A stretch of DNA of 41,295 nucleotides from Candidatus Rokuibacteriota bacterium (lineage in GTDB: Bacteria; Methylomirabilota; Methylomirabilia; Rokubacteriales; CSP1-6): positions 1 to 41,295 of the forward strand of contig QHSP01000104.1 of the NCBI GenBank assembly GCA_003220495.1. Direction: 5' to 3'. Of the stretch, positions 27,170-28,077 are shown piece after piece. The notes below the pieces were generated by a model, which was not told where the DNA came from, ran no database searches, and saw only the letters and a list, made by a program, of their open reading frames with translations. Every line of letters starts with the position of its first letter. Positions within the stretch are counted from its first letter, which is position 1. The position numbers and the translations under genes are program-made.

Positions 27170-27529
27170 CTACTCCGTGAGGATCTTGTCCGCCCACTCG
27201 ACGAGCGCCACGAGCGTCGGCGGGTCGGAGAACGAGGCGTTCTTCCCGGCAAGGTCGTCGATCAGGACCCCACGGGCCCGCGAGCAGGCGCCTCAGACGT
27301 GGATCGGCACGCGATGCGCGATCACCTTCGCGAGCGCCTCCGAGAGCGGCGCCCAGCCGACCGGCACGACCGCGGTCGCGACGACCGTACGCATCAGGGA
27401 CACGGCCTCCCCGAGCAAGAAGACCTGGACCTCGTGGCCGGCCTCGGCGAATGCGTTCGCGTGGTGAAACGGAAACGAGGCCTGCGTGGGATCGGCCGAC
27501 CCCCAGGCGCTCTTGATCAGGATCTTCAT
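27170..27529 (-). CDS. DsrE-like protein, predicted selenoprotein (in-frame TGA read as Sec79)
   Basis: Read through the TGA at 27295-27293, the gene gives 119 residues plus TAG (27172-27170), a normal length for small DsrE/DsrF-fold proteins. MKILIKSAWGSADPTQASFPFHHANAFAEAGHEVQVFLLGEAV is the family N-terminus, and VVPVGWAPLSEALAKVIAHRVPIHV leads into U-GACSRARG. In my knowledge of the family the motif is CGACSRARG, so TGA replaces the first Cys of a CxxC pair. After it, 40 conserved codons follow (VLIDDLAGKNASF, WADKILTE). A hairpin at 27279-27265 forms a plausible SECIS. ATG 27529 overlaps the GNAT stop by 4 bp. The likely role is a redox or sulfur/selenium-transfer reaction in the cytoplasm. 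The alternative is a Cys-to-stop mutation leaving a 78-residue stub. Confidence 0.75.
27258..27283 (-). promoter_or_regulatory. Candidate bacterial SECIS element downstream of the in-frame TGA
   Basis: Starting 14 nt after the TGA, GGGCCC (27279-27274) pairs with GGGUCC (27270-27265) across a GUG loop. That is 6 bp including one G-U. Below it, after an internal loop, UCG pairs with CGA (27283-27281 with 27260-27258). Counting the U of UGA as 1, the loop G is position 23 and the loop U is position 24, as in the E. coli fdhF SECIS. The bulged U17 of fdhF is not present; position 17 is a paired G. Confidence 0.6.
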
Positions 27530-28077
27530 CGCGCCATTTCCGCTTCTCCGAGATCGAGTCGAAAGCCCATGACCGTCGTGCCGGGCATGGGCTGAAAGTC
27601 CAGCTCGGGAGCGCGGACGAAGCCCATCCGCTCGTACATGCGCAGGGCGGTGTGCATCATCTCCGTCGTGTGGAGGCTCAGGACGCGTCCGCCGGCTCGA
27701 CGAACGCGACGCGCGCATTCCTGCATGAGCGCTGCGCCGACGCCCCGCCCGCGCTCGGCCGGCGCCACGGCGAGGAGCCGCACTTCGGGCCAGGGCATCT
27801 CGAGCCGACCCCCCTGAGGCAGCTCCAGACGGCGCGGGGGATAGAGCAGCACCGTGCCCACGATGGCACCGTCCCGCTCCGCGACGAGCTGCTCGGCCGA
27901 GCCGACCTCGGCGAGCGAGGCGAGGATGTTCCGGCGATAGCCTTCCCAGAAGGCCGGCATTCGCCCGGCATACTCCTGATAGGCCGCCAGGGTGACCTCG
28001 CGGATCGCCTCCCGGTCCGCCGGTCGCGCGTCGCGAACGAGCAGATCAGGCGCCGGGCTCGGAGAGCAGATCGACAT
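27526..28077 (-). CDS. GNAT N-acetyltransferase
   Basis: A 183-residue acetyltransferase. RDARPADREAIREVTLAAYQEYAGR is the first strand and helix pair, VRLLAVAPAERGRGVGAALMQECARR is motif A with the R-G-x-G-V/I-G acetyl-CoA loop, and MMHTALRMYERMGFVRAPELDF is motif B. It starts at ATG 28077, overlapping the end of the CYTH gene by 32 bp, the only ATG that covers the domain. Its stop overlaps the start of the DsrE-like gene. The substrate is unknown. Confidence 0.88.
   Translation of the reverse strand: MSICSPSPAPDLLVRDARPADREAIREVTLAAYQEYAGRMPAFWEGYRRNILASLAEVGSAEQLVAERDGAIVGTVLLYPPRRLELPQGGRLEMPWPEVRLLAVAPAERGRGVGAALMQECARRVRRAGGRVLSLHTTEMMHTALRMYERMGFVRAPELDFQPMPGTTVMGFRLDLGEAEMAR

Follow-up and report, generated by a model that had tools for sequence, protein, structure and literature searches.

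Selenocysteine (Sec) has been described before in DsrE-like proteins. Members of this family with a UxxC motif were found in the Sargasso Sea metagenome in 2005 (PMC1088965) and in the GOS data in 2008 (PMC2398784), a DsrE-like selenoprotein of D. vulgaris was listed in 2006 (PMC1794560), and a 2026 review gives the family with UxxC only. PMC13188914 cites a MAG of the Methylomirabilota in which 63 selenoprotein genes have been predicted. Among characterized members, DsrE of A. vinosum and TusD of E. coli both have Cys78 as the essential sulfur-binding residue, which has been proposed to be the active site throughout the superfamily (PMC3397948), and YedF, a SirA–DsrE fusion, has been linked to selenium metabolism (PMC5322559).

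The window analysed here, a stretch of 41,295 nucleotides from a Candidatus Rokuibacteriota bacterium, contains a gene whose product, judged from comparative evidence, is almost certainly a DsrE/DsrF-like selenoprotein, with UGA codon 79 read as Sec. Because DsrE-like UxxC selenoproteins are already published, the gene adds a member to a known family; a preliminary description of the window had correctly pointed to such proteins from metagenome surveys (PMC1088965, PMC2398784). Like the Sargasso Sea, GOS and D. vulgaris proteins, with which it was compared by family and motif rather than by alignment, the predicted product belongs to PF02635, carries Sec in UxxC and has a predicted bacterial SECIS after the UGA; unlike them, it comes from a Rokubacteria-type genome with a second Sec-DsrE copy. 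It shares with YedF a DsrE domain whose YedF counterpart has a CGxC motif, but it consists of the DsrE domain only (119 residues), has no N-terminal SirA-like domain and would carry Sec inside the motif.

An open frame across UGA codon 79

The gene lies on the minus strand at 27170..27529, with an ATG start at 27529–27527 and a TAG stop at 27172–27170, and its predicted product of 119 residues, with Sec at 79, is delimited by translation, the PF02635 match, homologues and an AlphaFold2 model. The TGA at codon 79 and the TAG ending a 120-codon frame had both been described previously, with the strand unstated; they are found in the minus-strand translation. Read-through would yield a product containing HVUGACSRARGVLIDDLAGKN and ending in WADKILTE, with the motif U-G-A-C at Sec79. 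The UGA codon (27293..27295, minus strand) aligns with the catalytic Cys of DsrE and TusD, and the TGC codon of Cys82, the proposed resolving residue of UxxC, follows at 27284..27286 on the same strand; every homologue in the alignment has Cys or Sec in this column. Upstream, the reading frame continues without a stop as far as an ATG at 27718 (ORF 27293–27718). At 27526–27529, the sequence ATGA overlaps the DsrE start codon with the TGA stop of a GNAT gene, which suggests translational coupling of the two genes.

The read-through protein matches PF02635 over residues 10–118 with 56.1 bits (cut-off 22.7). AlphaFold2, run on the family alignment, returned a model with pLDDT 98.0 and pTM 0.91, in which residues 80–119 supply further core strands and helices. 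On the basis of this model, we are confident that the full-length product would form a complete DsrE fold, in which U79-x-x-C82 lies where a core strand ends and a helix begins. The top PDB folds recovered by Foldseek were YchN, DsrEFH and the DsrE of Syntrophomonas (S. wolfei). E. coli YchN (PDB 1jx7) is the best match both by fold (E 1.5e-7, TM 0.78) and by profile (E 5.2e-6), and its CKTC aligns with UGAC, but it has Cys instead of Sec and is 22% identical. DsrE of DsrEFH (2hy5) and TusD of TusBCD (2d1p) share the fold, whereas the window gene has no neighbouring dsr or tus genes. Sec79 is aligned to the first Cys of LCKTC in YchN and to the C of NIC in TusD, and thus sits at the position of the catalytic Cys78 of DsrE and TusD. 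Assignment to the TusD/DsrE equivalog (TIGR03012) was rejected, at 18.3 bits against a cut-off of 89.25.

Relatives and selection on both sides of the UGA

Scanning named species genomes revealed relatives at 62–92% identity in Rokubacteria, Alphaproteobacteria, Nitrospinota and one Terriglobia MAG, and all of those that are full-length over the Sec79 column have TGA there. In a survey of the phylum, a homologue was found in 40 of the 95 genomes, with one or two TGA codons in every match spanning the column; the corresponding count for Nitrospinota is 5 of 18 genomes, all with TGA. One protein alignment that contained a misregistered row was left out of the analysis. The closest named relative, a gene from 'Candidatus Rokuibacteriota bacterium AR14' (L020), is 93% identical to the window gene at the protein level and is itself identical to the gene of G050, a genome from the same genus as the window. 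On these grounds, we assign the window to Rokubacteria, which belong to the GTDB phylum Methylomirabilota.

This distribution bears on the possibility that the TGA is a sequencing or assembly error for a true TGC or TGT. The window does come from a draft genome, yet the same TGA recurs in dozens of genomes that were assembled independently, L020 of the same genus among them, and is followed by a SECIS; an error at this codon therefore has a vanishingly small probability.

The ratio dN/dS after the UGA is 0.12 against L020 and 0.15 against L036, compared with 0.15 and 0.09, respectively, before it. By this measure, the 40 residues after the UGA are under purifying selection similar to that on the preceding part; together with the confident DsrE fold, these ratios (0.12 and 0.15) agree with the earlier proposal that the C terminus beyond the TGA is coding. 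They also speak to whether the TGA could be a nonsense mutation and the gene a DsrE copy that has lost its function. One observation lends itself to such decay: in a near relative, represented by L029 (L029:3001–3357) and L040, the SECIS lacks one base immediately downstream of the UGA, and the frame is shifted. This is either an assembly error or a decaying copy, so DsrE-like copies do sometimes decay or are mis-assembled. Against a nonsense mutation stand the TGA at the same column in homologues of several phyla, constraint after the UGA that equals that before it, and a DsrE fold kept past the UGA. For the family as a whole, the shared UGA and the purifying selection downstream refute a pseudogene; for the window gene, we regard it as very improbable.

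Cys forms also exist at the UGA column. The motif is CHSC in L071 and CGTC in L032 and L033, and a more distant CSPC paralogue is present in the phylum, so that Cys does occur where the preliminary description had expected it in homologues. L071 (G134:C1:3725117–3725467), from the order of L022, has no in-frame stop and is a homologue (E 6.7e-40); the tree groups it with the Sec gene L027 within the Sec clade (94/94, long branch), a position that hints that it may be a Sec-to-Cys replacement. The genome of L071 carries selB despite the Cys form of the gene. Among the genomes sampled, members of this DsrE subfamily are as a rule Sec forms, and Cys forms are exceptional.

The genome of the window holds a second DsrE-like selenoprotein gene (L018:1492–1848; G000:C84:9600–9941), which has a UGKC motif, is 49% identical and shares the same SECIS core. 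A further DsrE-like subgroup (L076, L077, L078 and L081) has in-frame TGA codons in CUDTC, AUDSC and CUTTC motifs.

The SECIS hairpin and the Sec machinery

Immediately downstream of the UGA, positions 17–31 counted from its U (27265..27279, minus strand) are predicted to form a SECIS hairpin, with a conserved stem of 5 bp, extended to 6 bp in the window, and an apical loop. Both the MFE and the centroid folds of the 42 nt contain the 6-bp stem 17–22/26–31 with G23, U24 and G25 in the loop, which is the same hairpin as the 6-bp stem with a GUG loop identified before. Its folding energy is not above chance for the single 42-nt sequence (z = +1.11, in a GC-rich stretch), so energy alone is no proof of a SECIS; we set it aside as evidence and used covariation instead.

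Across 33 distinct sequences, 95.8% of cells in stem 17–21/27–31 are paired, compared with 35–62% in slid controls, in which the partner was moved by 1–3 columns, and 83% in shuffles. Double changes occur in three pairs: 17–31, which is U-A in 12 of the 33 sequences, G-C in 10 and A-U in 6; 18–30, which is G-C, C-G or A-U; and 21–27, which is C-G or G-C. RNAalifold recovered the same stem unprompted. The loop bases G23 and U24 (27272..27273, minus strand) are visible in codon choice, U24 being the third base of the Arg86 codon CGT. This codon is CGT in 27 of 34 homologues but accounts for only 10 of the 127 other Arg codons of these genes (8%; Fisher p 3e-16, a nominal value because the 34 sequences are related), and its share of Arg codons in neighbouring genes of the window is likewise 8%. 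Exceptions at Arg86, such as L020 with CGG, retain G23. From this codon usage, U24, one of the loop bases that E. coli SelB reads in fdhF, is maintained through codon choice at Arg86. In the Cys homologue L071, the corresponding nucleotides do not form the hairpin and the Arg86 column has CGC. Given the covariation, the codon choice at U24 and the conserved UGA, the hairpin is more than a chance fold.

The genome of the window, a 6.0-Mb draft of 98.4% completeness in which the window is contig 20, encodes selA, selB, selD and tRNA-Sec, the four genes singled out previously as those to look for. tRNA-Sec lies at C152:34565–34658 (69.8 bits against a cut-off of 47; ARAGORN anticodon TCA), and selB is found on the same contig at C152:29930–31813 (356.6 bits) with selA adjoining it (591 bits). 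The selD gene (L085, G000:C1:77537–78481; 336.7 bits) has one in-frame TGA, in CAGUASK, making SelD itself a selenoprotein candidate. Because tRNA-Sec is near-universal in the phylum (79 of 95 genomes), its co-occurrence there with Sec-DsrE is weak evidence. A tRNA-Sec match is absent from 4 of the 40 phylum genomes with a Sec-DsrE gene (G038, G054, G060 and G076), all of them drafts, and from the genome of L021, also a draft.

These data weigh on a further explanation, in which an amino acid other than Sec is inserted at the UGA, whether by reassignment of the code or by general read-through that needs no SelB. The frame being open through the UGA fits such a reading. However, UGA is the ordinary stop in five of the eight neighbouring genes checked, the GNAT gene among them; moreover, the hairpin covaries, other homologues have Cys at the UGA column and the genome holds the full Sec machinery, all of which make decoding as a different residue highly unlikely. 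With a SECIS directly after the UGA, G23 and U24 in its loop, and SelA, SelB, SelD and tRNA-Sec in the organism, UGA 79 is expected to specify Sec. The Cys-column homologues and the sel machinery thus support the selenoprotein interpretation first put forward in the preliminary description.

Two-UGA relatives and proposed chemistry

A DsrE-like subfamily with two in-frame TGA codons, in UGGU or UTGU motifs (UxxU; L061, L082 and L087–L105), was found in genomes of the same phylum (G015–G035, G060, G065, G074, G082 and G091), among which G025 is a single contig with a completeness rating of 100%. A second hairpin, GGUCUU-loop-AAGACC, is predicted in 15 of 18 distinct UxxU sequences, with its loop starting 24 bases from the second UGA; L102 and L103 have a different hairpin, further downstream. 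The UxxU group is too conserved to tell structure from coding constraint for this second hairpin. The 5′ arm of this hairpin shares bases with the 3′ arm of the first stem; the two hairpins cannot form at once, and double Sec insertion in the main UxxU group would depend on alternative SECIS switching. We tentatively propose, as a reading with somewhat less than an even chance, that the window gene lies within a Methylomirabilota Sec-DsrE radiation that includes the UxxU form, in which two UGAs nine bases apart would each have a hairpin at a SECIS-like distance and, in the main group, mutually exclusive hairpins would allow double insertion by switching between SECIS folds. In a limited literature search, UxxU was found for other families and not for DsrE, and the UxxU DsrE subfamily is more novel than the window gene.

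The window protein is probably a selenium-based sulfur-transfer or redox enzyme in which Cys82 acts as the resolving residue. Sec79 would act in place of the catalytic Cys found in DsrE and TusD: its selenolate would attack a sulfane-sulfur or disulfide substrate, a Se–S intermediate would form on Sec79, and Cys82 would resolve this intermediate through a Se–S bond that a thiol reductant could then re-open. The main role could be either that of a sulfur carrier or that of a disulfide/persulfide reductase. Gene neighbourhood was discarded as a clue to function, as homologues of the window's type share no conserved neighbours; for the second type, the gene in L045 lies between an upstream redoxin and a downstream phosphogluconolactonase-like gene, an arrangement that the copy in the window's own genome (L018) does not share.

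Alternatively, the protein could be a selenoprotein outside sulfur transfer, with Sec79 and Cys82 forming a site that detoxifies peroxide or metals and metalloids. UxxC is common in thiol-redox selenoproteins (PMC1088965), the gene stands alone, and a search for the DsrC/TusE acceptor gave no TIGR03342 match in the window's own draft genome, leaving it without such a partner there. By contrast, the fold and the position of the active site are those of DsrE sulfurtransferases, and we consider a detoxifying site unlikely, albeit a serious contender.

In the selenoprotein reading, the apparent truncated stub and the gap after it together make up one intact gene. With the UxxU relatives, one can ask how a single mRNA could direct the insertion of Sec at two sites nine bases from each other, and the window gene, with Sec predicted at the sulfur-binding position of the superfamily, would offer a natural test of what selenium contributes to sulfur-transfer chemistry.
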